DNA of 64,000 nt. It comes from Haloarchaeobius iranensis. GTDB taxonomy: Archaea; Halobacteriota; Halobacteria; Halobacteriales; Natrialbaceae. This document shows positions 14,935 to 47,567 of the stretch, piece by piece. Both the position numbers and the translations under genes were made by a program. The notes beneath the pieces are model-generated. The model was not told the DNA's origin. It worked only from the letters and a program-made list of their open reading frames with translations, and ran no database searches. Within the stretch, counting starts at the first letter, position 1. Each line of letters opens with the position of its first letter. The stretch covers positions 1 through 64,000 of the forward strand of contig NZ_FNIA01000015.1 in assembly GCF_900103505.1 (NCBI RefSeq), read 5' to 3'.

Positions 14935-15033
14935 ATGGGTTATGACTCGACCGCCACCAGTCTCGACTGGTACACGATGACGAGTACAGACCCGGGGATG
15001 CGATGGGAACTGGAGGTGAACCGACATGGATGA
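14935..15033 (+). CDS. Possible small leader ORF upstream of iron-sulfur subunit
   Basis: An ATG at 14935 opens a 32-codon frame (MGYDSTATSLDW..., ending ELEVNRHG) that stops at 15033, eight bases into the iron-sulfur subunit gene. The stop-start overlap is ATGGATGA, with the ribosome site GGAGGTGA of the next gene lying inside this frame. A CATATT stretch lies about 35-40 bases upstream. No homology is recognised. It might be a translated leader coupling expression, or chance. Composition is neutral, and length is too short to judge coding bias well. Confidence 0.3.
   Translation: MGYDSTATSLDWYTMTSTDPGMRWELEVNRHG
15012..15019 (+). promoter_or_regulatory. Strong ribosome binding site GGAGGTGA
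   Basis: GGAGGTGA ends six bases before the ATG at 15026. Such a full Shine-Dalgarno match on a first gene is uncommon in leaderless-rich haloarchaea. It supports the start and implies a leadered or internal-operon mRNA. Confidence 0.6.
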
Positions 15034-16270
15034 CGAGGGACGGCTCCCGTTCGACGACCAGTCCGAGACCGAGATGCGGCGCGTGCTCTCGGAGACGGAG
15101 TACGATACCGACCTCGGTCTGGAGATGGCCCGTGACGCACAGCGGGTCGTCGCCGGTGAGCTGAGTGACGCGGAGTTCTACGCGAGGTACCACGAGGACA
15201 TGCTCGAGGAGTTCGGCCAGGACGCCCGCGAACTCCCCGAGCTCCGGGACGACCTCGACGGCGAGGTGGTATCGGAGACCTCGGACGCGACGAGCGTCCG
15301 CGAGTCGCTGGCGGCCCTCGCCGACAGGGAGGACGTCTCGCGGCGGGAACTGCTCGCCAAGGGCGGTGCGGCTGCCGCGGCACTGAGCGTCTTCGCCGGT
15401 GCCGGGAGCGGCTCCGGCGGGGAGCACGGTGACACGCCGACGGACGGCGATGGCACCCGCTGGGGGATGGTCATCAACCTCAACAACTGCGACGGCTGCC
15501 TCGCCTGCGTCAGCGCCTGCTCGCAGGAGCACGGCCTCTCCCGCGGCGCGAACTGGATGTACGTCTTCACCTACGAGGACCGCAACCAGGACGACGAGAA
15601 CTTCCTCGTCCGGCCCTGCCAGCACTGCACCGATTCGCCGTGCACGAAGGTCTGCCCGGTCGGCGCGCGCCACACCCGCGACGAGGACGGGCTCGTGCTC
15701 ACGGACTACGACATCTGTATCGGCTGCCGGTACTGCGAGGTATCGTGCCCGTACGGCGTGAACTACTTCCAGTGGGGCGAGCCCGACGTGCCGGACGCGG
15801 AGATCCCGAACGAGCACCAGCTCGACGACCGGGGGAAGTGGGTCGGGTCGCGGCCGCCGGAGGGCGTCATGGGAAAATGTACCTTCTGCGTCGACCGGCA
15901 GGACGGCCAGATGGGCGAGGAGAGGGTCGGGACGACCGCCTGCGAGGAGGCCTGTGCGATGGACGCCATCCACTTCGGCGACCTCAACGACGAGGAGAGC
16001 GCACCGAACCAGCACCTCCACGAGTACCGGGGCGAACAGGAGAACGACCGCTCCTCCTTCCCGGACCGGACCGAGCACACGGTCTCGACGTTCAACCTGC
16101 TGGAGGAGCGCGGGACGAGCCCGAACGTCCACTACATCGGCAACGAGCCGTCGCCCCACGCCGAACAGGTCGAGGGGCCGGTCTCCTACGAGGATGTCGG
16201 GCTCGTCGACGACCGTAGTGAGGTGCTCGACGACGGTGCCGCCGCCAACGAGGAGGGTGAGGAGGCATGA
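15026..16270 (+). CDS. 4Fe-4S electron-transfer subunit with internal Tat leader
   Basis: The 414-residue protein has an acidic N-terminal domain of about 100 residues, then a twin-arginine leader (DVSRRELL at 103-110, followed by a short hydrophobic Ala-rich stretch), then a DmsB/PsrB-type ferredoxin domain. The Cys motifs are CDGCLACVSAC from residue 155, CQHCTDSPCTKVCP, CIGCRYCEVSCP and CTFC with a distant CEEAC, enough for four [4Fe-4S] clusters. The partner NrfD gene overlaps by four bases and a small membrane protein follows. Such subunits carry electrons between a quinone-linked membrane anchor and a molybdopterin enzyme, but no such enzyme is nearby. Confidence 0.88.
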   Translation: MDDEGRLPFDDQSETEMRRVLSETEYDTDLGLEMARDAQRVVAGELSDAEFYARYHEDMLEEFGQDARELPELRDDLDGEVVSETSDATSVRESLAALADREDVSRRELLAKGGAAAAALSVFAGAGSGSGGEHGDTPTDGDGTRWGMVINLNNCDGCLACVSACSQEHGLSRGANWMYVFTYEDRNQDDENFLVRPCQHCTDSPCTKVCPVGARHTRDEDGLVLTDYDICIGCRYCEVSCPYGVNYFQWGEPDVPDAEIPNEHQLDDRGKWVGSRPPEGVMGKCTFCVDRQDGQMGEERVGTTACEEACAMDAIHFGDLNDEESAPNQHLHEYRGEQENDRSSFPDRTEHTVSTFNLLEERGTSPNVHYIGNEPSPHAEQVEGPVSYEDVGLVDDRSEVLDDGAAANEEGEEA

Positions 16271-17595
16271 GCGTCGACACGACCGACGTGAGCCGCGAGA
16301 CGCTCGTCCGCCCCATCGGTACGCTGTCGAAGCAGTACCTGCTCGCGCTGGTAGCGGCGCTAGGTGCCATCGGCGTCTGGGTGTTCTTCTACCTGCAACA
16401 GCTCCAGCACGGCCTCATCGTGACGAACCTCGCCGACTGGGGCTCCGGCGGCGGCGTGCCGTGGGGGCTCTACATCGGCGCGTTCATCTGGTGGGTCGGC
16501 ATCGCCCACGGCGGCATCATCCTGTCGGCCGCGGTTCGACTGCTCGGGATGGACCGGTACCAGCCGGTCGCCCGCATGGCCGAACTGCTGACCATCGCGG
16601 CACTGACCTGTGCCGGCGTGTTCATCCTCATCCACGTCGGCCGGCCGGACAGGCTGGTGACGAGCGTGCTCCCCGCGTGGCCGACGCGGGTCCAGTGGTC
16701 GCCGTTGATGTGGGACGTGACGGTCATCACGGCCTACTTCGTCCTGACGGCGACGTACCTCGCGTTGACCATCCGGTACGATATCCACCGGCTGCGTGAC
16801 CGACTGCCGGACCAGCTCGAACCGGTGTACGCGGTGCTGATGGTCGGGTACTCGGAGCGCGAGGACGCCATCGTCGAGCGGATGGTCTGGTGGATCGCCT
16901 TCGCCATCATCATCATGGCACCGCTGCTGCTCCACGGGGGCGTCATCCCGTGGTTGTTCGCGTTGCTCCCGTCGATGGCCGGCTGGGCCGGCGGCGTCCA
17001 GGGTCCGTCGTTCCTCTCCATCGCGCTGACCTCCGCGGTCAGCGGCATCATCATCGTCGCGGCGTCGTTCCGCCGTGCCTACGGCTGGGAGGAGCTCGTC
17101 CCGGTCGAGGTGTTCCGGGGACTCGCGAAGTGGCTGGGCTTCTTCGGCCTCATCTTCCTCTGGCTCCAGCTCCAGCAGGTCATCACCGGCATCTTCGCCG
17201 CGCCGACGACGCTCCAGCACGCGACGGAGGTGAAGATAGCGACGCCGGTGTACTGGGTCGCCATCGGACTCGTGCTCGCCGCGATGTTGTACGTGTTCGC
17301 GTGCTCGCTGCGGCCCTCGCTGTTCAGCATTCCCGTGCTGGTGGCGCTCTCGTTCGGCGTGCTCGTCGGCACTCTCGTCGAGAAGGTGCTGTTCGTCGTC
17401 GAGGGGCTCCAGCACGCGCACTTCCAGCTGTACGACGGCGTGCCGGGCGTCTACGTCCCCTCTCCGGTGGAGCTGTCGGCGCTGCTCGGGACCGTCGGCA
17501 TCGTCGTCCTGTTCTTCCTCGTCGTCGCGAAGGTCATCCCCGTGGTCGAACTGCACGCCATCGAGGCGGCCCACGAGGGGGGGGACGACGCATGA
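16267..17595 (+). CDS. nrfD: NrfD/PsrC family quinone-linked membrane subunit
   Basis: The 442-residue protein is almost all membrane helix (eight to ten segments). The first (LLALVAALGAIGVWVFFYL) is followed by LQHGLIVTNLADWG and PWGLYIGAFIWWVGIAHGG, the opening characteristic of NrfD/PsrC/ActC proteins, which face the quinone pool. It starts at an ATG overlapping the iron-sulfur gene stop (ATGA) and itself overlaps the following small gene by ATGA. Family members exchange electrons between quinones and the iron-sulfur subunit. Direction (reductase or oxidase) is unknown without the catalytic subunit. Confidence 0.88.
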   Translation: MSVDTTDVSRETLVRPIGTLSKQYLLALVAALGAIGVWVFFYLQQLQHGLIVTNLADWGSGGGVPWGLYIGAFIWWVGIAHGGIILSAAVRLLGMDRYQPVARMAELLTIAALTCAGVFILIHVGRPDRLVTSVLPAWPTRVQWSPLMWDVTVITAYFVLTATYLALTIRYDIHRLRDRLPDQLEPVYAVLMVGYSEREDAIVERMVWWIAFAIIIMAPLLLHGGVIPWLFALLPSMAGWAGGVQGPSFLSIALTSAVSGIIIVAASFRRAYGWEELVPVEVFRGLAKWLGFFGLIFLWLQLQQVITGIFAAPTTLQHATEVKIATPVYWVAIGLVLAAMLYVFACSLRPSLFSIPVLVALSFGVLVGTLVEKVLFVVEGLQHAHFQLYDGVPGVYVPSPVELSALLGTVGIVVLFFLVVAKVIPVVELHAIEAAHEGGDDA

Positions 17596-17873
17596 CTGCG
17601 GCGGCACTCCCGACGGTGCTGGCCGCACTGTTGCCGCTGGCCGCCAGCAGCGGTGGGGGCGGCCACTCGCTCCCGTTCGTCGGCCCGGGCACGTACCTCA
17701 TCTTCGGCATCGTGCTCGCGCCGGTGTACCTGATGGTCGTCGCCTGGTACGTCGGCGAGCCGAGCGACCGGTCGAAGGCCTGGCTCGGCGTCGGCTACCT
17801 CGTCGGACTCACCACGGTCTTGTGGGGGAGCCTGTTCGTCGCCACGATGGCCATCGACGTGCTGTACTTCTGA
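17592..17873 (+). CDS. Small two-helix membrane protein of the NrfD module
   Basis: The 93-residue protein has a hydrophobic N terminus, a Gly-rich GGGGHS segment, and two clear membrane helices (YLIFGIVLAPVYLMVVAWYV and LGVGYLVGLTTVLWGSLFVATMA). Its ATG overlaps the NrfD stop codon by ATGA, so it is translated with the NrfD protein and is probably a third subunit or assembly factor of the same complex. I recognise no characterised family. Confidence 0.78.
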   Translation: MTAAALPTVLAALLPLAASSGGGGHSLPFVGPGTYLIFGIVLAPVYLMVVAWYVGEPSDRSKAWLGVGYLVGLTTVLWGSLFVATMAIDVLYF

Positions 17874-17917
17874 GGCACCGCCGGACAACCACCCACTCAC
17901 ATCACGACACACCACCC

Positions 17918-19021
17918 ATGCCACTACCCGAATCCGAACTCGAAGACAGACTGAGAGCCGTCGAGGATCCCATGAACGACGACGATATCGTCTCCCTGGG
18001 CCTCGTGAACGACATCGACATCGACCACGAGGGAGCAACCGTCTCCCTCGCGTTCAACGCCCCCTACGCACCGACCGAACTGGAGATCGGCAACGATATT
18101 CGAGATATCGTGGAGGACGCCGGGATGGAGCCGGACCTCCGCGCCGATATCGGCGAGGAACACGGTTTCGACCAGGAGGTCTTCCCGGGTGTCCGCAACG
18201 TCGTCGCCGTCGCCTCCGGCAAGGGCGGCGTCGGGAAGACGACCGTCGCCGCGAACCTCGCCGCCGGACTGAACGACCGCGGTGCCCGCGTGGGCATCCT
18301 CGACGCGGACGTACACGGCCCGAACGTCCCACGGCTGCTCCCGTCGGAGAACGAACCCGGCGTGATGCCGGACGGCGACATCGTCCCGCCACGCTCCGAG
18401 GGCGTCGCCGTGATGAGCACCGACCACCTGATGCCGGACGGCGACCAGCCGGCGGTGATGCGCGGTCCGATGGTGAACAACGTGATGATGAAGTTCGTCG
18501 AGGAGGTCGAGTGGGGCAGACTCGACTACCTCGTGGTCGACCTCCCGCCCGGCACCGGCGACGCGTCGCTGAACCTGCTCCAGACGCTCCCGGTCGCCGG
18601 CGTCGTCATCGTCACGACGCCCCAGGAGATGGCCGTCGCCGACGCCCGGAAGGGGCTGAAGCTGTTCGCGGACCACGACGCCCCGGTCCTCGGCGTCGTC
18701 GAGAACATGAGCGCGTTCCGGTGCCCGAGCTGCGACGACACCCACGAGGTGTTCGGCGCGGGGGGCGGCGACGAGATACGCGAGGACTACGACGTGCCGG
18801 TGCTCTCCGAACTGCCGGTCCACCCCGACTTCGACAGCGGCTCGACGGAGGGGCCCACCATCAGGGACGAGGACAGCCCGGTCAAGGAGGAGCTGTTCGA
18901 CATGGTCGACGCCGTCGCCGACCGCATCGGCGAGGTGAACCGCAGACAGGTCGCCGAACACGTGGGCGTCGACGCCACCGACGACCGCGACGAGGTCCCG
19001 GCCGCTGTGGAGTCCGACTGA
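17918..19021 (+). CDS. mrp: Mrp/NBP35-type P-loop iron-sulfur carrier ATPase
   Basis: The 367-residue protein has an N-terminal DUF59/MIP18-like domain (about 1-85), a P-loop ATPase with deviant Walker A SGKGGVGKTTVAANLA near residue 100, a DADVHGPNVPRLL switch region, and DLPPGTGD Walker-B-like segment. CPSC in the C-terminal half is the Cys pair used to hold a transferred [4Fe-4S] cluster. Its role is cytoplasmic iron-sulfur cluster delivery. It follows the iron-sulfur/NrfD module by 44 bases, so maturing that protein's clusters is a plausible local job, though housekeeping roles are equally possible. Confidence 0.92.
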   Translation: MPLPESELEDRLRAVEDPMNDDDIVSLGLVNDIDIDHEGATVSLAFNAPYAPTELEIGNDIRDIVEDAGMEPDLRADIGEEHGFDQEVFPGVRNVVAVASGKGGVGKTTVAANLAAGLNDRGARVGILDADVHGPNVPRLLPSENEPGVMPDGDIVPPRSEGVAVMSTDHLMPDGDQPAVMRGPMVNNVMMKFVEEVEWGRLDYLVVDLPPGTGDASLNLLQTLPVAGVVIVTTPQEMAVADARKGLKLFADHDAPVLGVVENMSAFRCPSCDDTHEVFGAGGGDEIREDYDVPVLSELPVHPDFDSGSTEGPTIRDEDSPVKEELFDMVDAVADRIGEVNRRQVAEHVGVDATDDRDEVPAAVESD

Positions 19022-19110
19022 GAACCAAGTCACGGTACTCCATAACACACTTGCGGCAGGCGGCTGTAGTTCGGGTAGTCAGACCGGACCATCCCGGTCG
19101 GCGCCCACCC

Positions 19111-19935
19111 ATGACCGACACCAGCGCCATCATCCGACGCATCGGACGGGGCGTCGCCGACGTCCTGCTCGGGTTGGTCGGTACCCTCGCCGTCGCCCTG
19201 GTGCTGCTCAACGTCACCACCGGCCTCCAGCGCCCGGTCTACGACGCACTGTACCTGCGACTCGGCCCGAGCGGGGCAACGGAAGCGGCCATCCTCCTCC
19301 AGTTCCTCGTCAGCGGTCTCGCGGCGGTCCTCGTCCCGCTGGTCGTCGCCGACTACGTGCACACCGGGCTCGCGAACCGGGACGCACTCGTCGCCGTCCT
19401 GCTCGTCTTCCTCGGGGTGCCCGTCGCCTTCACTGCCGTCGCCCTGGCCGGGTTCCCGTCGACGCCCATCGCGCTCCTGCTGCTCGTGCTGGTACTCCTG
19501 GGGGCCCCGGTGCTCCTCTGGCTCCGGTTCGACGTTCGGTCCGGCGCACTGCCGACGTTCGTCGGGAGCGTCCCGGCCGTGGTGCTGCTCATGCTGCTGG
19601 CCGCGGTCGGTATCGGCTGGGGATGGGGCTACGTCGTCACCGCCCAGGAGGTGCCGGCGTCGCCTGTCGACGACGCGACGGTGGGGTCGCTGTCGGACCG
19701 GCCCGTGGTCGCGTCCGCCCTGTTCTCGTCCGGGAACTGCGAGACCGACGCCGAGGGGTTCCGGGAGTGCCACCTGTCGCTGCGTGGGTTCGAGCACGAG
19801 CGGGACGCGGTCCGTGCGCTGTCAGAACTCGGCGTCAGGTGTCCGTACCAGCGGAACGGCGGCGACGGCGGGACCGCCATCGTCCAGCACGAGGGTCGGT
19901 ACTACAGGGTTGGGTGTTCGCCCCACGGGGACTGA
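19111..19935 (+). CDS. Five-helix membrane protein with exported Cys domain
   Basis: The 274-residue protein has five probable membrane helices within residues 15-180, and a C-terminal domain with four Cys (NCETDAEGFRECHL, VRCPYQ, VGCSPHG) that should lie outside the membrane and could form two disulfides. It starts at ATG 19111, 89 bases after mrp on the same strand. No family is recognised. The high Val/Leu/Ala content of the helices is normal for haloarchaeal membrane proteins. Confidence 0.75.
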   Translation: MTDTSAIIRRIGRGVADVLLGLVGTLAVALVLLNVTTGLQRPVYDALYLRLGPSGATEAAILLQFLVSGLAAVLVPLVVADYVHTGLANRDALVAVLLVFLGVPVAFTAVALAGFPSTPIALLLLVLVLLGAPVLLWLRFDVRSGALPTFVGSVPAVVLLMLLAAVGIGWGWGYVVTAQEVPASPVDDATVGSLSDRPVVASALFSSGNCETDAEGFRECHLSLRGFEHERDAVRALSELGVRCPYQRNGGDGGTAIVQHEGRYYRVGCSPHGD

Positions 19936-39189: not shown

Positions 39190-39984
39190 TCAACGCCACG
39201 CGAGCCGGGTCGCCAGCGCGAGGCTGGCGGCCAACCAGGCGAGCAGCGCGGCCGTGCCGAGGAGCGCGGTCGGCCCCTCGGGGACGGCGACGCCCGTCGG
39301 CGCGACGCTCAGTTCGAGGACGAGACTCCGGTAGGCGCTGTTCGGACTGAGCGCGAGTACGGCGGTCGGGACGTGCTCGCCGGATACCGAGCCGAGCAGG
39401 GCACTGTCCAGGCCGACGACGAGCGCGACGACGCCGCCGGTGGCCAGTGCGAGCCCGCCACGGGTCGAACGTGCGGCGGCCGAGACCAGCGTCGCGATGG
39501 CGAGCGCGACCAGCGCGAACAGCGCCGTCGCCAGCGCGTATCGGAGGTAGAGCGCGGGCGAGTCCGCCGTGGGGTGGGAGGCGACCACCGAGAGCTGTGC
39601 CGTGTCGCTCGTGGGGACGACCGAGCCGGCGAGGACGAACGAGAGCAGCACCAGCCCGAGCACGACGACGGCCCGGCCGAGGTAGACCCCGACGACGTAC
39701 CAGTGCCCGGCGATGGGATACGTCCGGATGGTCTCCAGCTCCCCGCTCTCGCGGTCGCCGAGCAGCGCCCGGTAGCCGACGGCGAACGAGAGCACCGGGA
39801 CGAGCAGCTCGACGGGCGTCAGCAGGTCGAGCACGAGCGCGAGGTACGCGCCGGTCCCGCCCAGCCATCCGATGCCGCCGACCAGCACCACGTAGCCGAG
39901 GCCGACCGCCAGCAGTGTCGGGGTCCGGAGGACGGTGCGGAACTCGCGCTCGGCGACGTCGGCCACGTAGCGGAGCTCGCTCAC
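39190..39984 (-). CDS. nosY: ABC-2 type permease NosY
   Basis: The 264-residue membrane protein has about six helices, with LLTPVELLVPVLSFAVGYR and GDRESGELETIRTYPIAG matching ABC-2 permeases of the NosY type. The start codon is GTG at 39984, which overlaps the nosF stop (GTGA). NosY with NosF forms the ABC transporter that, with NosD, matures the nitrous oxide reductase copper site. Confidence 0.88.
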   Translation of the reverse strand: MSELRYVADVAEREFRTVLRTPTLLAVGLGYVVLVGGIGWLGGTGAYLALVLDLLTPVELLVPVLSFAVGYRALLGDRESGELETIRTYPIAGHWYVVGVYLGRAVVVLGLVLLSFVLAGSVVPTSDTAQLSVVASHPTADSPALYLRYALATALFALVALAIATLVSAAARSTRGGLALATGGVVALVVGLDSALLGSVSGEHVPTAVLALSPNSAYRSLVLELSVAPTGVAVPEGPTALLGTAALLAWLAASLALATRLAWR

Positions 39985-40760
39985 GCGCGGTCACCCCCGT
40001 GGAGGCCGGGCGAGACGCCGACCGTGCCCCCGCCGTGGCCGAGTGTCTCGATGGCGTCGTCGAGCGTCGTCGCGCCAGCCTCGGCCAGCAGCTCCGCGGG
40101 CGGGCCAGCGGCGACGAGTTCGCCGCGGTCGACGAGCAGCACCATGTCCGCGATACGGTCGACCGTGTGGAGGTCGTGCGTGGAGAGGAGCACAGCGTCG
40201 CCGTCGGCCGCGAGGGCGCCGATGACCTCCCTGAGGTGGCGGGCCATCGTGGGGTCGAGCCCGGTCGCCGGCTCGTCGAGGACGAACACCGACGGGTCGC
40301 CGACCATCGCCTGGGCGAGCCCGAGCAGTCGGCGCATGCCCCCGGAGAGCGCGTCGACGCGGCGGTCCGCGACGGCCGAGAGCCCGACCCTGTCGAGGAC
40401 GGCGTCGACGTCCGTGGCGTCCCCCACGAGCGACCCGTAGAACCCGACGGTCTCGGCGACGGTGAACTGCCGGCGGAACGCGGGCTGCTGGGCGAGGTAG
40501 CCGACCCGGCGGCCGCCGTCGCCGGCGACGGTGACGGAACCGGCGTCGGGTTCGAGCAGGTCGGCGACCAGTCGCAGCAGCGTGGTCTTCCCGCTCCCGT
40601 TCGGGCCGACGACACAGGCGACCGTGCCGCCCGGAACGGTGAACGATACGTCCCCGAGGACGTCGAGGCCGTCGAAGGAGTGGCTCACGTCGGTGACCTC
40701 GACGGCCGGTCGCTGTTCGGCTGGCTGTTCCTCTGCTCGGCCGGTCTGTCGAGTGCTCAT
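39981..40760 (-). CDS. nosF: ABC transporter ATPase NosF
   Basis: The 259-residue protein has Walker A GPNGSGKTTLLRL, signature LSGGMRRLLGLAQAM, Walker B VFVLDEPATGLDP and H-loop STHDL. It is the cytoplasmic ATPase paired with NosY. The ATG at 40760 overlaps the nosD stop (ATGA). Confidence 0.93.
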   Translation of the reverse strand: MSTRQTGRAEEQPAEQRPAVEVTDVSHSFDGLDVLGDVSFTVPGGTVACVVGPNGSGKTTLLRLVADLLEPDAGSVTVAGDGGRRVGYLAQQPAFRRQFTVAETVGFYGSLVGDATDVDAVLDRVGLSAVADRRVDALSGGMRRLLGLAQAMVGDPSVFVLDEPATGLDPTMARHLREVIGALAADGDAVLLSTHDLHTVDRIADMVLLVDRGELVAAGPPAELLAEAGATTLDDAIETLGHGGGTVGVSPGLHGGDRA

Positions 40761-42736
40761 GATACGCTCACGTTGTGCGTCTCCAGTCGGTTCGGGTGGA
40801 CCGGGTCTGTCAGCGGTGCGGGGTCGACGACGCTCGGGCGACGGAGGCCCGGCGCCGCCTGCTGGAACTGGTCGAACATGCGGGCCGCCGGCGAGTAGGC
40901 GAGCGCGTTCGCGACCGGCGAGCGCCGAGCGTTCCGGTCGACGGGGTCCGTCGGCCGGTAGGCCCGCTCCACGACGCCGTCGCCGTCGCGGTCGACGCCG
41001 GGCACGGCCCCCCAGTAGTTGCCGCGGCCGTCGACGGCCCAGCTCTCGAGCGTCGCCGTGCCGGGCGACACCGGCCTGTCGTTGCCGACGACGTCGTTCT
41101 CGAACACGTCGTTGGTGGGGAGCATCGTCGTCGACCGGACGCCCACGCCGTTGTCGACGACCGTGTTCCCGCGGTAGGTCGACCGGGCGGTGCCGATCGA
41201 GAGGCCGACCTCGTTGTTCGCGACCACGTTCCCCGTCACGTAGGAGGCCGTGCCGGCGGTGCTGATGCCGACGCTGCTGTTCCGCACGTCGTTGCCGACC
41301 ACGGCGTTGCCGGCCGGCCGGGTCATCACGTAGATGCCGGTGTTCACGTCGCGGACGGTGTTGTTCACGACGAGCGTGTCGCTCGTGTACATGTCGTGGA
41401 AGCCGAACCGGAGGTCCTCGACGTGGTTGTCGCGGACCACCGTCCCGTCGGCGTAGTGCGCGTAGACGGCGTCACGCCCGCCGTCGAACCGGGAGTCCTC
41501 GACGACCATCCGGGAGTACATCGGCAGGACGCTCATGAATCCAGACAGCCCGTCGGTGCCGGTCACCTGGGTCTCGCGGACGACGACGCCGTCGCTGTCG
41601 AGGGCGACGACGCCGTTCGAGGGCGTGTCGATGCGGACGTTCTCGACCAGCGACCGGTCGGCGTCGTGCAGCCGCACCGCAGCATCGCCGTAGCCGTACG
41701 TGAGCCTGATGCGACGGTCCCAGGCCGACCCGTCGTCGGACTCCAGCTGGCCGGCGTTGGCGTCCCCGACCCCCACGATCCGGAGGTCGGTGAGTGCGAC
41801 GGCGGGCGAGCTGACGGTCACGACGGTGCCGTCGCCGCCCCCGTCGAGGACGGTGTCGGTGCCGGTCCCGGCGAGCGTGAGCGGTCTCCCGACGGAGAGG
41901 TTCGCGTCGTACCGCCCGGCGAGGAGCCTGACCGTGGTGTTCGCCGGCGCGCGGTCGACAGCCGCGGCGAGCGTCGGCGCGTCCTCGCCCAGCACCACAG
42001 CAGCCGGCGCGTCGCCGGCGGCGTCTTCGGGGGACACCCGGCCGGCCGCGGTCTCGACCGCCGGTCGATCGGTGCCGACGACCATCGACACCGGCCGGTC
42101 CAGCGTCCCGTGCGCCCGTTCGACGGTCCGGTCGGCCCACCGCTGTCGCTCGGCGACGGGCGGCTCGTGGTCGACGGCGTCGGTCCGGTCCGCCCGTCGC
42201 TCCCGGAGGCCCTCCCAGTCGACGACGCTGCCGTCGTGGGCCGCAGCGAACGCCCGGGCCGCCGCCCTGTCGCCGAATGGGAGCGCGGTCGGTCCGGCAG
42301 GTGTCCGCGCCGGCGTTCCGACGACGAACCAGGCGTCCTCGGCGCGCGTCCAGCCGGGCGCCGCGGCGTCGGGGAGCGTCACGTACCCCTCGTCGGTCAG
42401 CGCGGGGTCGGTGCCGGCGAGGTCGTTGACGAAGACCGCGAGCGGGCGGCCGAACTGGGCCCGGTGCCGGGGGTGGGAGACGCCCGTGACGAGCGCGTCG
42501 GTCCCGTAGTAGCCGACGACGTACTCGTACTGCGAGTAGAACACCTGTCCTCTCGGGACGACGTACCCCGCCTCCCGCGCCTGCTCGACGTCGACACCGG
42601 TCAGGCCGGTCGTGAGGGTCCGGTCGAAGGCCACCGGCGAGAGCTGCTCGCCGTCGCCGGTGTCGACGACGAGCCCGCTCCCGGCGACCAGCAGCGCGAG
42701 CAGCACGACGGCGCCGGCGAGCGTGACCGTCCTCAT
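40757..42736 (-). CDS. nosD: NosD copper-site maturation protein with NosL-like N-terminal domain
   Basis: The 659-residue protein has an N-terminal hydrophobic signal/anchor (LAGAVVLLALLVAGS), then a domain at about 81-180 with the NosL tail pattern AWFVVGTPARTPAGP and ADRAAARAFAAAHDGSVVDW but no Cys or Met pair, then a right-handed beta-helix of many parallel strands (about 245-600), typical of NosD. In NosD the helix carries the exported copper-assembly function. The ATG overlaps the stop of a 67-codon ORF (ATGA). The extra N-terminal domain is distinctive. Confidence 0.88.
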   Translation of the reverse strand: MRTVTLAGAVVLLALLVAGSGLVVDTGDGEQLSPVAFDRTLTTGLTGVDVEQAREAGYVVPRGQVFYSQYEYVVGYYGTDALVTGVSHPRHRAQFGRPLAVFVNDLAGTDPALTDEGYVTLPDAAAPGWTRAEDAWFVVGTPARTPAGPTALPFGDRAAARAFAAAHDGSVVDWEGLRERRADRTDAVDHEPPVAERQRWADRTVERAHGTLDRPVSMVVGTDRPAVETAAGRVSPEDAAGDAPAAVVLGEDAPTLAAAVDRAPANTTVRLLAGRYDANLSVGRPLTLAGTGTDTVLDGGGDGTVVTVSSPAVALTDLRIVGVGDANAGQLESDDGSAWDRRIRLTYGYGDAAVRLHDADRSLVENVRIDTPSNGVVALDSDGVVVRETQVTGTDGLSGFMSVLPMYSRMVVEDSRFDGGRDAVYAHYADGTVVRDNHVEDLRFGFHDMYTSDTLVVNNTVRDVNTGIYVMTRPAGNAVVGNDVRNSSVGISTAGTASYVTGNVVANNEVGLSIGTARSTYRGNTVVDNGVGVRSTTMLPTNDVFENDVVGNDRPVSPGTATLESWAVDGRGNYWGAVPGVDRDGDGVVERAYRPTDPVDRNARRSPVANALAYSPAARMFDQFQQAAPGLRRPSVVDPAPLTDPVHPNRLETHNVSVS

Positions 42737-42936
42737 GGCTCGGCCCTCACCCCGTTCACTTCGGTCGGGGCGTCGCCAGGCGCGCCGACGGCTTCCTTGC
42801 CGTCGCCGGGTTCGAGAGCTGTACTAGTGCAAAGATTGACCAATACTGTCCGGCTGCTGGCTTGGCGGAGTGGTCGTGCGGGCCGTCCCGTCCGACCCCG
42901 CTCGTGTCCGTGGAAGGGTGGTGTGTCGCCTGTCAT
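42733..42936 (-). CDS. Unexplained bridging ORF between ccdA and nosD
   Basis: This 67-codon frame starts at ATG 42936 overlapping the ccdA stop (ATGA) and ends at 42733 overlapping the nosD start (ATGA). The first half is Gly/Arg-rich (GHERGRTGRPARPLRQASS), the second half acidic and Gly-rich (EPGDGKEAVGAPGDAPTE). Composition is mixed, so it may be a real small protein or a coupling frame. An AT-rich patch inside, on plus at 42823-42850, might instead be a second promoter for nosD. No family is recognised. Confidence 0.4.
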   Translation of the reverse strand: MTGDTPPFHGHERGRTGRPARPLRQASSRTVLVNLCTSTALEPGDGKEAVGAPGDAPTEVNGVRAEP

Positions 42937-43619
42937 ACTGGAATCGGTGAAGACGGCATCGCGGACGGTGCGAGCGCGACGACGAGCTGTCCCGTCCCGG
43001 CCAGGACGAGGACCACGCCGGCGGCGCGTTCGAGCAGACTGCCGAGACCGCCGAGTCGGGCGGCTGCGACGTCGACGCCGAGCCCCACCAGCAGGGTCAA
43101 CGCCAGCAGCGGCAGGGCGGCCCCCAACGCGTAGACGAGCACGACGGCGGCAGCCTGGGGAAGCGGCAGCGACACCGACTGAACGACGACTGCCAGGAAC
43201 ACCGGGAGGACACAGCCGGCCGACGCGGCGGCGTAGCCGGCACCGAACAGTGCGAACCCCGGCGTGTCGGCCCGGCGTTCCGGCAGTTGGACCGTCAGGG
43301 ACGGGCCACGCCTCGTCAGCACGAGCACGCCGAGGCCGACGAGGGCCAGCCCGACGGCAGGCTCCACGAGCGGGAGGAGCCGGGCGACCGGTCGGCCCGC
43401 GAGGACCGCCATGGTCGCGAGCAGCCCCAGGGTGAGCAGGAGGCCGCTCGCGGCCGCGAGTCCGCGCGAGAGCACGCCGCTGGCGTTCGCCGCCCCGTCC
43501 GCCGACCGGGCGTAGAAGCCGACGTAGCCGGGCACCAGGGGGAGCGCACACGGCGAGAGGAACGTCGCGAAGCCCGCCCCCGCGGCGAACGCCAGCTGGC
43601 CCGCCTCCAGGCCGGTCAC
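42933..43619 (-). CDS. ccdA: CcdA-type thiol-disulfide membrane reductase
   Basis: The 228-residue protein has six helices and the two membrane Cys of the CcdA/DsbD core: Cys24 in FLSPCALPLVPGY and a second in SAGCVLPVFLAVV. It moves reducing power to the outer face for cytochrome c or copper-protein maturation. GTG start at 43619 overlaps the TlpA-like stop (GTGA). Confidence 0.9.
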   Translation of the reverse strand: MTGLEAGQLAFAAGAGFATFLSPCALPLVPGYVGFYARSADGAANASGVLSRGLAAASGLLLTLGLLATMAVLAGRPVARLLPLVEPAVGLALVGLGVLVLTRRGPSLTVQLPERRADTPGFALFGAGYAAASAGCVLPVFLAVVVQSVSLPLPQAAAVVLVYALGAALPLLALTLLVGLGVDVAAARLGGLGSLLERAAGVVLVLAGTGQLVVALAPSAMPSSPIPV

Positions 43620-44167
43620 GGCGTCGAGTCACCCCCCGCGGCCCGGATCTCCGCGACGATTCGCGAGGCGGTGGTCCGCCCCGTATGCGACCACGCCACG
43701 GTCCCGTCCGGGGCGACGACGACGGCCGTCGGGATGCTCGTGGCCCCGTACTTGCGTGCCAGGGCCACGCCGTCGTCGACGCCTACCGGCCAGCCGCCGT
43801 CGTGGTCGTCCCACCACGCCGCGACGTCCTCCCTCGAGACGGTCAGGCCGACTGGCTCGCTGGTCACCGAGAGGAACTGGACGTCCTCGCCGGTCTGGCG
43901 GTAGGCGTCGCCGACGACCGACATCTGCGACGCGCAGATCGGGCAGGTCGTCGCGAAGAACTCGACGAAGGTCACGCGACCCGGCTCGGGGACGACCGTA
44001 CTGCCGGCCCGGCTGCCGGACGCGTCGATGGTCTCGACCGTGACCGACTCCGGGTCGTCGCCGTCGTCGCCAGTCAGTGTCCGGCCGAGGCTGTTGCAGC
44101 CGGCGGTCGCGACCGTCGTCGCGGCGGCGACCGCGCCGAGCAGCTCACGCCGCCGCACGCCGGTCAC
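43616..44167 (-). CDS. TlpA-like thioredoxin lipoprotein
   Basis: The 183-residue protein has a twin-arginine-like leader (VRRRELLGAV) and lipobox TAGC at Cys24. A thioredoxin fold follows with the CPIC active site at 75-78 and cis-Pro in GATSIPTAVVV. It should be anchored outside the cell membrane, taking electrons from CcdA and reducing Cys of copper-site or haem-site proteins. Start is GTG 44167. Confidence 0.88.
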   Translation of the reverse strand: MTGVRRRELLGAVAAATTVATAGCNSLGRTLTGDDGDDPESVTVETIDASGSRAGSTVVPEPGRVTFVEFFATTCPICASQMSVVGDAYRQTGEDVQFLSVTSEPVGLTVSREDVAAWWDDHDGGWPVGVDDGVALARKYGATSIPTAVVVAPDGTVAWSHTGRTTASRIVAEIRAAGGDSTP

Positions 44168-44185
44168 CTCCGCGAGTACGCCCGG

Positions 44186-44974
44186 TCACCACGGCTGGAA
44201 GTGCGGGAGAGGGATAGCCGGGAGCGGGACGCCGAGCGCCGCCAGGCCGTGCTGGAGTGGGATGTAGCCGAGCACGACGAACGCGACGCCGAGCGCACGG
44301 TGGAGCCGCTGGTGTCCCCGGGTGTCCAGTCCCTCGAACACCGTCCCGGTCAGGAAGACCGCCGGGACCGTCCCGAGGCCGAGCGCCGCGAGCGCCGCCG
44401 CGCCCCCGAGCGCCGACCCCTGGACGAACGCGTACAGGTACGCCGGATAGAGTAACGGACACGGCAGGAAGCCGTGGACGGCTCCGAGGCCGGCGATGCG
44501 GTAGTCGCCGACCCACTCGTCGACTCGCGGGAGCAGGCTGCCCCGCACCGTGCTCGCGACCCGTTCGACGCCCGGAATCGGGACGCTCCGGGCCCCGTTG
44601 CCGGCGACGTAGCTGACGCCGACCGCGGCGACGACGAGCCCCACGAGGATGCCGGTCGTGGCGCGGACCTCCGTGGCGACGAGGGTCACGTCCCGCACGC
44701 TCACGAAGACGAGCTGGCCCGCGAGGCCGAAGAGCCCACCGAGCAGCGTGTAGCTGGCGGTGCGCCCGAGGTTGAACACCGCGTGCTGCCTGACCGCGCG
44801 GACCGAGAGCACGCCGTCGCGGCCGTCCCCGTCCATCCTGGCCGCGTAGGTCGCGACCAGCGGGCCACACATCCCGATGCAGTGTGCGCCGCCGAGCAGG
44901 CCGACGAGGGCCAGCACCGGGAGCCCGAGCGTCTCCGTCCCGAGGAGTGGATTGGCTGGAGTACATGAGGCCAT
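44186..44974 (-). CDS. TauE/SafE-like (DsbD-like) membrane protein
   Basis: The 262-residue protein has about six helices and the family motif GGAHCIGMCGPLV at residues 28-40, with two Cys. Members of this group are found near cytochrome oxidase and nos maturation genes, probably in copper or thiol handling. The ATG at 44974 is three bases from the SCO stop. It precedes the TlpA-like gene by 18 bases. Confidence 0.85.
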   Translation of the reverse strand: MASCTPANPLLGTETLGLPVLALVGLLGGAHCIGMCGPLVATYAARMDGDGRDGVLSVRAVRQHAVFNLGRTASYTLLGGLFGLAGQLVFVSVRDVTLVATEVRATTGILVGLVVAAVGVSYVAGNGARSVPIPGVERVASTVRGSLLPRVDEWVGDYRIAGLGAVHGFLPCPLLYPAYLYAFVQGSALGGAAALAALGLGTVPAVFLTGTVFEGLDTRGHQRLHRALGVAFVVLGYIPLQHGLAALGVPLPAIPLPHFQPW

Positions 44975-44977
44975 CTG

Positions 44978-45667
44978 TCAGGCCGTCGCCTCGACGACCG
45001 TCTGGACGTCCGAGAGCACGCGCTTGTGGTCCGGACGGTCGGTGCGGTACGCTCGTTCGACGGTGCCGTCGGGGTTGCGGAGGAAGGTCAGGGAGAGGTG
45101 TCTGAAGTCGTAGCCCGGTAGCCGCTGGGACTCCCCGGCACCGATTCGGTCGAAGGTGACGCCGAGTTTCTCGTCGACGACCGTCTCCGCGCGCTCGGGC
45201 GACGCCGGCCGCAGGAACCGCCAGTTGCCCGCCGCCATGTCGATGTTCATCCGCTGGCCGTACTCGCGGAGGGTCGCGGCGTCGTCGCGTTCCGGGTCGA
45301 ACGTGATGGCGAGGAACGTCACCTCGTCCTCGATACCGCGCTCGACGGTGCCCTGCTGGACCCCCGCCAGCTGACCGATGAGACGGACGCACTCGACTGG
45401 GCAGGTCGCGAAGAAGGCGGTCACGACGAGCGTCCCGTCGACCGCCGCGCTCTCGACGACCTCGCCGGCCAGTGGGTCCGGTAGCTCGAAGTCGGGCAGC
45501 GCCTGCCCGTGGGCCGGATACGGCAGCTCACTGCTGTCGTACTGCTGGTCCGCTGGTGGGTCGAGCACCGTCTCGCCCCCCTCTGTTCCACCGAGAGCCG
45601 ACGTGAGGCAGCCGGCGCTCGCCGCGGTGAGCCCGAGGCTGGCTGCGAGGTAGGTCCGTCGCTGCAT
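44978..45667 (-). CDS. SCO1/SenC copper chaperone
   Basis: The 229-residue protein has a signal region with lipobox SAGC at Cys20, a thioredoxin fold with CPVEC (Cys89, Cys93) and the copper-ligand His190 in YDFRHLSLTF. SCO proteins deliver copper to CuA-type centres, found in cytochrome oxidase and in nitrous oxide reductase. It is the first gene of the minus-strand operon that runs to nosY. Confidence 0.92.
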   Translation of the reverse strand: MQRRTYLAASLGLTAASAGCLTSALGGTEGGETVLDPPADQQYDSSELPYPAHGQALPDFELPDPLAGEVVESAAVDGTLVVTAFFATCPVECVRLIGQLAGVQQGTVERGIEDEVTFLAITFDPERDDAATLREYGQRMNIDMAAGNWRFLRPASPERAETVVDEKLGVTFDRIGAGESQRLPGYDFRHLSLTFLRNPDGTVERAYRTDRPDHKRVLSDVQTVVEATA

Positions 45668-45698: not shown

Positions 45699-45742
45699 AG
45701 TCTGGTGCAGCTCTCGAAATACTACGACGGTCGTACCAGACT
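45699..45742. promoter_or_regulatory. Nested palindromes in the divergent SCO/nosL promoter
   Basis: AGTCTGGT at 45699-45706 and ACCAGACT at 45735-45742 form a perfect 8-bp inverted repeat with 28 bases between. Inside it, TACGAC-G-GTCGTA (45723-45735) is a second palindrome. They lie centrally between the SCO start and the nosL start. A dimeric regulator bound here could control both directions. Confidence 0.45.
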
Positions 45743-45773: not shown

Positions 45774-46613
45774 ATGGCAGAACACGAACACACGGCGCTC
45801 GACAGACGGACGATGCTCGCCCTGGTCGGAGCCGGCTCGGCGGCCGCCCTCGCCGGCTGTCTTGGCGGCGACGGGGGGAACGGGACGCCAACCCCGACGG
45901 CGACGCCGAGCGACCAGGTCCCCGAACAGTACCGGACCGCGACGGGGCTGGGCGGCGGCGAGCGCGACCCGGATAATCTCGCCAGCAAGGGCGACGTGAG
46001 CTACCAGCCCCAGCCCCAGGACGGGCAGCAGTGCTCCGGCTGTACGTTCTACATCCCCGACAAGAACGGTGACGGCGCCGGTGCCTGCACCATCGTCGAG
46101 GGGACCATCGACCCGAGCGGCTACTGCACGAGCTACGTCGCACACGAGACGGACGGCGGGGACAGCGACGGACAGTCGGCCTCGCCGGTCGACGTTCCCG
46201 AGGACGCCCACTGTGCCGTCTGTGACATGATGGCCGCGAACTTCCCGGAGTGGAACGCACAGGCCGTGCACGGAGACGACACCCGCGAGTTCTTCTGTAC
46301 GTCCGGCTGCGCGACGACCTACTACGCCCTCCCGGACCAGTTCGCCGAGACCGACGCCGACATCGCGGGTCTCTGGGTCAGGGACCTGAACTCGCGGGCG
46401 CTCGTCGACGGGACGACCGCGTACTACGCGCTCGAGACCGAGCAGGACAGGTTGGAGGACCCGATGCGGGTGAACCCGGCCCCGTTCGAAGCACGGGAGG
46501 ACGCCGTGGCGTACGTCGACGAGGTCGAGTACCTCGCCGAGGAGGACATCGTCGAACTCTCCGCGTTCGACCGGGAACTGGCCGAGCAGTACCGCGGCCA
46601 GCTGGTGGAGTAA
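45774..46613 (+). CDS. nosL: HiPIP-like domain fused to NosL lipoprotein
   Basis: The 279-residue lipoprotein has a leader with lipobox LAGC at Cys29. Residues about 72-125 look like a high-potential iron-sulfur protein: CSGC (87, 90), Cys105 and Cys118 spaced x2, x14 and x12, ending in CTSYV. From about residue 145 a NosL domain follows with CAVCDMMAANFPEW (Cys147, Cys150, Met152, Met153) and FFCTSGCATTYY. NosL delivers copper(I) to the nitrous oxide reductase. The HiPIP part would add an electron-transfer [4Fe-4S] cluster. Divergent from the SCO-nos operon. Confidence 0.85.
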   Translation: MAEHEHTALDRRTMLALVGAGSAAALAGCLGGDGGNGTPTPTATPSDQVPEQYRTATGLGGGERDPDNLASKGDVSYQPQPQDGQQCSGCTFYIPDKNGDGAGACTIVEGTIDPSGYCTSYVAHETDGGDSDGQSASPVDVPEDAHCAVCDMMAANFPEWNAQAVHGDDTREFFCTSGCATTYYALPDQFAETDADIAGLWVRDLNSRALVDGTTAYYALETEQDRLEDPMRVNPAPFEAREDAVAYVDEVEYLAEEDIVELSAFDRELAEQYRGQLVE

Positions 46614-46664: not shown

Positions 46665-47177
46665 TCACTCGAGGAAGCTGTCGTCGACCAGCCGGGTGAA
46701 GCGGTCGACGAGCCGGTCGGGCAGCGATGGCGTGACCTCGTCCAGCAGCCGCCGCGTCTCCTCGGGGCGGGTCAGCGTGATGTGGCTCCGCCCCTGCTGG
46801 TCGTAGCACTTCTCCGCGACGCCGGCCTCGACGAGCGTGGAGACGTGCCAGGACAGCGTGCTCCGCGCCACGTCGAGCTCCTCGGCCAGCTCCGCCGCCG
46901 AGGGCTCGGGCTCCTCCAGCGCGGCCACGATGATGCCCCGGACCGTCTCGCGGCGCAGGAGTGCGATGGTCCGTTGCTCCCACGGGTCGTAGCCCGTCGG
47001 GAAGTAGTGCGTCCGACCCCGCAGCTCCTCGGTGTCGAGTCGGCCGGCCTCCAGGAGACGACGGAGGTGGTACTGTGCCTGTCCGGTCGCGATGTCGAGT
47101 TCCCTGGCGAGCTCGTTGAAGTGGACGCCGGGGTGGGACTCGATGTGGTGGTGGACGCTCCGTCGCACGTCGCTCAT
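46665..47177 (-). CDS. Tandem winged-helix transcriptional regulator
   Basis: The 170-residue protein has two winged helices in tandem: VHFNELARELDIATGQAQYH at about 18-37 and SAAELAEELDVARSTLSWHV at about 93-112, each followed by a wing. No Cys or ligand motif is seen. It is convergent with nosL and could control the nos-type operon through the divergent palindromes; that is inference. Confidence 0.85.
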   Translation of the reverse strand: MSDVRRSVHHHIESHPGVHFNELARELDIATGQAQYHLRRLLEAGRLDTEELRGRTHYFPTGYDPWEQRTIALLRRETVRGIIVAALEEPEPSAAELAEELDVARSTLSWHVSTLVEAGVAEKCYDQQGRSHITLTRPEETRRLLDEVTPSLPDRLVDRFTRLVDDSFLE

Positions 47178-47246: not shown

Positions 47247-47567
47247 TCAGCTCGAGGGGACAGGGGGTTCGCTCCGGTAGAGCGCGTACAGGACGAGCGT
47301 CGCGACGACGAAGTCCGAGCCGTGTTCGACGAGGTGATGGACCGGCATCGGGACGGCGCCGAACACGGTCCCAAAGCCCACGAGCGACCGGGCGACGAGC
47401 AGCGCGAGCGCGACCGAGACCAGCAGGTAGACCCGCGACCGGCGCCGTCGGTAGCCCGCCAACCCGATCAGGAACAGTGCCGTCGTCCCGAGCGTCGCCA
47501 GACCCAGCACGATGACCAGTAGGGTCGCCTCGGTCCCGCTCAGCCACTCGCCGACTGACTGTAACAT
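47247..47567 (-). CDS. Three-helix membrane protein of haloarchaeal type
   Basis: The 106-residue protein has three membrane helices (TLLVIVLGLATLGTTALFLI, VYLLVSVALALLVARSLVGF, DFVVATLVLYALYRS) and a short Arg-rich loop. I recall a similar haloarchaeal DUF (DUF7471 type) near winged-helix genes, but this was not searched. The start at 47567 is the compact choice. It lies 69 bases upstream of the tandem winged-helix gene on the same strand. Confidence 0.65.
   Translation of the reverse strand: MLQSVGEWLSGTEATLLVIVLGLATLGTTALFLIGLAGYRRRRSRVYLLVSVALALLVARSLVGFGTVFGAVPMPVHHLVEHGSDFVVATLVLYALYRSEPPVPSS

Follow-up and report, generated by a model that had tools for sequence, protein, structure and literature searches.

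Copper enzymes that are assembled outside the membrane pose the question of how their metal stays, or becomes, Cu(I), and a locus of the haloarchaeon Haloarchaeobius iranensis raises it in a concrete form: does a copper chaperone carry its own electron-transfer domain there, and if so, to what end? The locus lies in a stretch of 64,000 nucleotides (contig NZ_FNIA01000015.1, positions 1 to 64,000; NCBI RefSeq assembly GCF_900103505.1), referred to in the following as the window. The open reading frame (ORF) at 45774-46613(+) spans 279 amino acids and encodes a single twin-arginine translocation (Tat) lipoprotein in which a high-potential iron-sulfur protein (HiPIP) domain is followed by a domain of the copper chaperone NosL. 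HiPIPs are so far known as respiratory or photosynthetic carriers. An initial annotation of the sequence had described the gene as a fusion of a HiPIP-like domain to NosL in one lipoprotein, and had suggested that a [4Fe-4S] cluster on the chaperone could reduce Cu(II) before delivery.

Two domains in one lipoprotein

The fusion had been recognized by four cysteines with spacings of x2, x14 and x12 ahead of a CxxCxMM site, and both elements were recovered. In the HiPIP part the pattern is C-x2-C-x14-C-x12-C (C87, C90, C105 and C118), and the NosL site reads C147-x2-C150-x-M152-M153, with M231 as the second conserved methionine. Both parts exceeded the curated cut-offs of their Pfam families: residues 71-122 matched PF01355 (HIPIP) with an E-value of 6.5e-8 and 33.2 bits (cut-off 22), and residues 138-250 matched PF05573 (NosL) with 3.2e-12 and 47.4 bits (cut-off 24). 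A HIPIP family search of the source genome recovered the fusion as well, at 32.7 bits, and sequence matches in the PDB were 3h31 for HiPIP (2.5e-8) and 7osf for NosL (8e-4). A longer ORF starting at 45666 was considered and rejected. The ATG at 45774 is preferred because a conserved inverted repeat would otherwise be overrun, and because the Tat motif lies 10 residues past this ATG.

Structure prediction had been proposed as a check on the HiPIP part. The full-length fusion was modelled with AlphaFold2 on a 42-row alignment, and the HiPIP part was remodelled alone on 57 locus sequences. In the full-length model the NosL part was confident (predicted local distance difference test, pLDDT, about 95 from residue 140), and Foldseek matched it to 7osf (1.0e-5, TMt 0.73) and 7og7 (7.3e-5), as well as to 7osg and 7znq; these entries are NosL structures, from the NosDFYL complex or from Shewanella. 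The HiPIP part was poorly modelled in this mixed alignment (pLDDT about 30-55). Modelled alone, it reached a mean pLDDT of 94.1, and the top 18 Foldseek matches in the PDB were all HiPIPs, with 1isu and 3h31 first; VIA-align gave Z 8.0 for 1isu, with a root-mean-square deviation of 3.0 over 59 aligned positions, and Z 7.9 for 3h31. As the five HiPIP models ranged from a pLDDT of 94 for the best to 44 for the worst, the model has to be weighed jointly with the sequence evidence. Altogether, the HiPIP part is predicted to be a genuine HiPIP fold and the NosL part a genuine NosL fold; the unrelated fold that would have counted against the initial annotation did not turn up.

Full-length orthologues with 59-86% identity were found in seven other genomes of two families. 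In the eight aligned intact fusions the four HiPIP cysteines, Tyr77, C147, C150, M152 and M231 are invariant; the four cluster cysteines are also invariant in 57 aligned HiPIP domains, and R11, R12, G28 and C29 of the leader in 42 aligned relatives. The ratio of nonsynonymous to synonymous substitution rates (dN/dS) was 0.27-0.56 for the HiPIP domain and 0.19-0.26 for the NosL domain, with a far more variable linker. Purifying selection acts on both domains while the linker drifts. Because independent genomes and complete replicons carry the fusion, an assembly artefact is ruled out, and the join of HiPIP and NosL is confirmed as real. Family knowledge allows three predictions for the protein: it would be exported by the Tat route and anchored by a lipid, its NosL part would bind Cu(I), and its HiPIP part, judging by fold and invariant cysteines, would hold a [4Fe-4S] cluster.

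Among 391 Halobacteria genomes (denoted by G numbers, the source genome being G000), an intact fusion was present in G000, G213 (Haloarchaeobius sp. FL176), G326, G238 (Halorubellus salinus), G367 (Haloarcula halophila), G199, G110 and G294, and a frameshifted copy in G332. A scan of genome contigs and plasmids added Haloarcula rara, Haloarcula sp. GH36 and Salinibaculum sp. KK48. The search among archaea that had been suggested at the outset consequently yielded about 11 intact fusions, every one haloarchaeal. Within the source genus, three of the six species have it. Where the fusion proteins are annotated, databases label them merely as NosL. HiPIP genes of any sort occur in 84 of the 391 genomes. 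When one genome per species (84,980 species) was scanned with short conserved peptides, a method that could miss a divergent bacterial fusion, the fusion appeared only in haloarchaea and in unplaced Euryarchaeota metagenome-assembled genomes. A phylum sample outside Halobacteria contained no intact HiPIP gene, and one genome had a match broken by stops. In the complete genome of Halomicroarcula sp. SYNS111 (L075/L159) a frameshift falls within the HiPIP domain of the fusion, by decay or by sequencing error.

Nine fusions group in a single clade (98/94) of the HiPIP tree, with G110 and G294 outside and weakly resolved. In the NosL tree all fusions fall in one clade, together with three proteins that lack a HiPIP, from Halorientalis marina, G217 and G382. 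Both one gain followed by losses and two or three gains fit these trees, and the plasmid-borne fusions of Haloarcula fit horizontal spread. HiPIP domains are found in a further lipoprotein type of haloarchaea, of about 260-290 amino acids, which carries a tandem HiPIP pair (L002/L003, L023, L027, L031, L032, L033, L138, L141, L197). The two halves of these proteins form separate clades, and the source genome has one too (C31).

The surrounding copper module

The features of the locus are collected in the table. The fusion gene is divergent from a run of seven genes, sco, safE/dsbD-like, tlpA, ccdA, nosD, nosF and nosY (39190-45667). Haloarchaeobius sp. FL176, G326 and Halorubellus share this order, as does Salinibaculum sp. 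KK48 with a gap, and G199 and G367 have it in part; in G294 and G332 the fusion is instead the first gene ahead of nosD-nosF-nosY. The inverted repeat between the two divergent units is kept at nine aligned loci, against a chance expectation of 0.01 per window, and occurs as a single copy in the genome. The module holds two NosL domains on different proteins, one in the fusion and one in NosD (40757-42736).

Table. Features of the HiPIP-NosL locus in window coordinates, with the basis of each assignment
Feature	Position	Strand	Basis
NosY permease	39190..39984	-	position after NosF; homology in conserved loci
NosF ABC ATPase	39981..40760	-	Pfam ABC_tran; conserved order
NosD bearing a NosL domain of its own at the N-terminus (residues 58-177)	40757..42736	-	Pfam NosD 89 bits, NosL 51.5 bits
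CcdA-like membrane protein	42933..43619	-	40% to annotated CcdA of GH36; no Pfam match
TlpA-like thiol-disulfide reductase lipoprotein	43616..44167	-	Pfam Redoxin; 50% to annotated TlpA
DsbD_2 / SafE-like membrane protein	44186..44974	-	Pfam PF13386; 79% to annotated TauE/SafE, Haloarcula GH36
Sco (SCO1/SenC) lipoprotein	44978..45667	-	Pfam PF02630
Inverted repeat GTCTGGT-N28-ACCAGAC, probable operator in the divergent promoter of the sco operon and the fusion gene	45700..45741		conserved, unique
HiPIP-NosL fusion lipoprotein gene, 279 aa	45774..46613	+	ORF, Pfam, PDB sequence matches, alignment
Tat signal peptide (R11-R12) and lipobox ending LAG-C29, residues 1-29	45774..45860	+	inspection of sequence
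Low-complexity Thr/Pro stalk, residues 30-47	45861..45914	+	sequence, alignment
HiPIP domain, residues 48-124, ligand Cys C87/C90/C105/C118, conserved Y77	45915..46145	+	Pfam PF01355, model, Foldseek, VIA
Four cluster cysteines, codons at 46032, 46041, 46086, 46125	46032..46127	+	sequence, invariance
Flexible linker, residues 125-138	46146..46187	+	unconserved, low pLDDT
NosL domain, residues 139-279, Cu site C147-x2-C150-x-M152, M231	46188..46610	+	Pfam PF05573, model, Foldseek
HVO_0163-type winged-helix regulator, a candidate for recognising the inverted repeat	46665..47177	-	Pfam PF24266; recurs at many such loci
DUF7471 small membrane protein, travels with the HVO_0163-type regulator	47247..47567	-	Pfam PF24283

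HiPIP and copper-module genes also meet as separate genes. Unfused HiPIP genes adjoin nosDFY in G325, G239, G135, G232, G080 and G173 (five of these being one genus), and stand near sco-tlpA-ccdA in G235, G128, G168 and G114. This adjacency supports a working link, with few independent events behind it, and the fusion echoes an association that already exists between the separate genes. Another neighbour was not accepted as copper support: the P-type ATPase adjoining solo HiPIP genes in Haloferax-like genomes (15 loci) has CPC and lacks YN4P and MxxSS. The latter two are motifs of Cu+ pumps. This CPC heavy-metal ATPase (L185:5996-9237 and 14 further loci) is possibly a zinc-type pump.

Downstream of the fusion gene, the HVO_0163-type regulator and DUF7471 (window:46665-47567(-)) recur jointly at NosL, Sco and HiPIP loci and are candidates for a copper or redox regulator pair. 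Elsewhere in the window, at 15026-19935, a ferredoxin-type Fe-S subunit, NrfD and an Nbp35/NUBPL-like P-loop gene were seen. This set may be a quinone-linked oxidoreductase; SQR, TusA, rhodanese and DUF1641 genes lie in the same region.

Client enzyme and direction of electron flow

Which enzyme would receive the copper? NosZ above the family cut-off was found neither in the source genome, which is 99.9% complete, nor in G213, G326, G238, G367, G199 and G110; the source genome gave only weak matches to the C-terminal CuA domain. This makes six of the eight other fusion genomes NosZ-less, when the frameshifted G332 is included in the count. Nitrous oxide reductase was consequently rejected as the client of the fusion in the source genome. 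Across the sample, NosZ is present in 112 of 391 genomes, and presence of the fusion is not clearly tied to it in either direction. In Haloarcula sp. GH36, a stretch of about 12 kb holds a ba3 oxidase (CoxII, CoxI), CcdA-TlpA-Sco, NosDFY, SafE-Sco and, besides the fusion, a second NosL. In the case of G110, a gene reading like haem A synthase (ctaA-like, named from sequence alone) lies just upstream of the fusion. In the source genome, the CuA motif CHEYC occurs in a ba3 CoxII whose gene has a SafE-like gene and a P1B ATPase of the Cu+ type as neighbours. Because the genome has no NosZ, the neighbours are Sco, TlpA and CcdA, and relatives have a ba3 oxidase or a haem-A-synthase-like gene, we infer a haem-copper (ba3-type) oxidase as the likeliest client, ahead of nitrous oxide reductase.

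Two further loci of the source genome concern the same enzymes. At L186:7559-13605 (G000:C50) the ba3 oxidase genes are divergent from the SafE-like gene and the P1B ATPase, the latter with Cu+ motifs, which is possibly a dedicated copper supply for this oxidase. At G000:C36:233200-237600 (L140:10245-14568) this NosZ-less genome has a second, canonical NosL-NosD-NosF-NosY set.

The reading that we favour, at a rough probability of 0.4, is that of a lipid-anchored NosL-family copper chaperone with a tethered HiPIP, which works in a Sco-SafE-TlpA-CcdA-NosDFY module and delivers Cu(I), likely to a ba3-type oxidase. TlpA and Sco would keep the thiols of client and chaperone reduced. Outside the membrane, the HiPIP would accept electrons one at a time from the respiratory chain and would hand them to copper at, or reaching, the NosL site, so that copper would be delivered as Cu(I). 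More tentatively, the protein could be an extracytoplasmic cupric-reductase chaperone whose HiPIP passes respiratory electrons and whose Cu(I) loads a haem-copper oxidase, with NosL/NosDFY turned to another enzyme. That electrons flow to copper, in which direction they do so, and that an oxidase is the client are in each case what we infer from the parts. Two precedents support an Fe-S cupric reductase in copper delivery. As summarised in a 2020 review, the Fe-S domain fused to the Archaeoglobus fulgidus chaperone CopZ mediates Cu(II) reduction, this being the only archaeal case that the review names, and in bacteria the cbb3 oxidase has an Fe-S cupric reductase in CcoG (PMC7558416). Cu(II) reduction by the HiPIP part would be plausible, and on thermodynamic grounds it would be reasonable for a reduced HiPIP to give its electron to Cu(II), with the resulting Cu(I) then held in a tight NosL site.

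Several points weigh against this reading. The ba3 oxidase of the source genome sits on a different contig from the fusion, and NosZ is present in G294, which has the fusion, and in G332, which has the broken copy. Halorientalis marina has a close NosL relative without HiPIP in the same locus type; the HiPIP is therefore dispensable in some relatives. Finally, known HiPIP potentials of 50-633 mV (PMC10879576) form a range that would suit a carrier feeding the oxidase at the end of a chain no less than a cupric reductase.

The main rival is an electron-carrier role, in which the HiPIP is an ordinary respiratory donor to the CuA of the oxidase and NosL merely positions it at, or loads, that CuA, so that electrons go to the enzyme and not to the copper cargo. 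Quinol oxidoreductases such as ACIII reduce HiPIPs, which act as extracytoplasmic carriers (PMC5928083); among PDB sequences the domain matches 3h31, the Rhodothermus marinus HiPIP, best; and a ba3 oxidase adjoins the fusion in Haloarcula GH36. However, the gene links between HiPIP and copper are mostly to assembly genes (NosDFY, Sco, TlpA, CcdA) and not to oxidase subunits, and a high-turnover carrier would presumably gain little from a chaperone tether; we consider this role rather unlikely. The electron could also run the other way, with the HiPIP oxidising Cu(I) to supply a mixed Cu(I)/Cu(II) CuA or to drain spare Cu(I). Potentials up to 633 mV (PMC10879576) would allow this, and in one bacterium the CuA-forming chaperone carries a single Cu(I) together with a single Cu(II) (PMC7558416), but a module so rich in reducing components (TlpA, CcdA) makes it improbable.

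The HiPIP may instead have no redox role on copper, being a stalk, a docking module, a redox- or oxygen-sensing module, or a passenger carried along when similar Tat-lipoprotein leaders recombined. Solo HiPIP and solo NosL lipoproteins do resemble each other in their Tat/lipobox leaders, so that leader recombination would be an easy route to the fusion, and the relative at L160 has no HiPIP domain. Invariance of the cluster cysteines and Y77, with purifying selection across two families, and the recurrence of unfused HiPIP genes beside the same modules make this distinctly unlikely. As NosL and NosDFY are the set for CuZ assembly (PMC7558416), the fusion could finally serve nitrous oxide reductase, its HiPIP giving the electrons that NosR-type proteins give in bacteria. 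G294 and G332 would agree with this assignment, but the seven NosZ-less fusion genomes, G000 included, do not, and Haloferax volcanii likewise has nosFY without nosZ (PMC9240420). This role is very unlikely overall and is already disfavoured for the source genome.

Known relatives and meaning of the fusion

Within the NosDFYL complex, NosL (Pfam PF05573; PDB 7osf, 7og7) is the copper lipoprotein, with a CxM motif and a second conserved Met as proposed ligands (Bennett et al. 2019, PMC6530538). The fusion shares with it the fold, the lipoprotein anchor, both ligand elements and the NosDFY neighbours, and differs from it in the N-terminal HiPIP, in a genome without nitrous oxide reductase and in the Sco/SafE/TlpA/CcdA neighbours. 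With HiPIPs (PF01355; PDB 1isu, 3h31) it has in common the fold, the four-Cys pattern and the predicted export; unlike the free soluble carrier, this HiPIP is archaeal, would be lipid-anchored and is tethered to a copper chaperone. The closest functional precedent is A. fulgidus CopZ, reviewed as an archaeal copper chaperone with a fused Fe-S domain (Sazinsky et al. 2007, cited in PMC7558416). CopZ is described there as cytosolic, with [2Fe-2S]/Zn and a chaperone of its own CopZ type, whereas the fusion is predicted to be extracytoplasmic, HiPIP-type and NosL-type. A CopZ-type domain gave no Pfam match in the fusion, and no relation by descent to CopZ was seen; the fusion may work alike and is not a member of the CopZ type. 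CcoG (Marckmann et al. 2019, cited in PMC7558416) is likewise an Fe-S protein and reduces Cu(II) when haem-copper oxidase is assembled, which resembles the role proposed for the fusion. CcoG differs, according to the same review, as a membrane protein with two tetranuclear clusters and no attached NosL chaperone. The NosL-NosD fusion of haloarchaea (H. mediterranei HFX_RS15875, PMC9240420; 40757-42736 in the window) joins NosL to a part of the same machinery as well, but has no redox domain and was annotated already.

No paper in open-licence PubMed Central, outside which most subscription papers lie, contained NosL and HiPIP together, and the copper inventory of H. mediterranei makes no mention of an iron-sulfur protein. 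The fusion is thus provisionally undescribed, in line with the initial annotation, whose author did not know of it.

By joining an electron carrier and a copper chaperone that are both defined, the HiPIP-NosL fusion names their likely partners, in one protein of about 250 residues in which the question of Cu(I) outside the membrane becomes testable. It suggests that NosL/NosDFY, known from nitrous oxide reductase, may serve other copper enzymes in NosZ-less archaea, and that the haloarchaea which host it control the redox state of copper while loading their respiratory enzymes.
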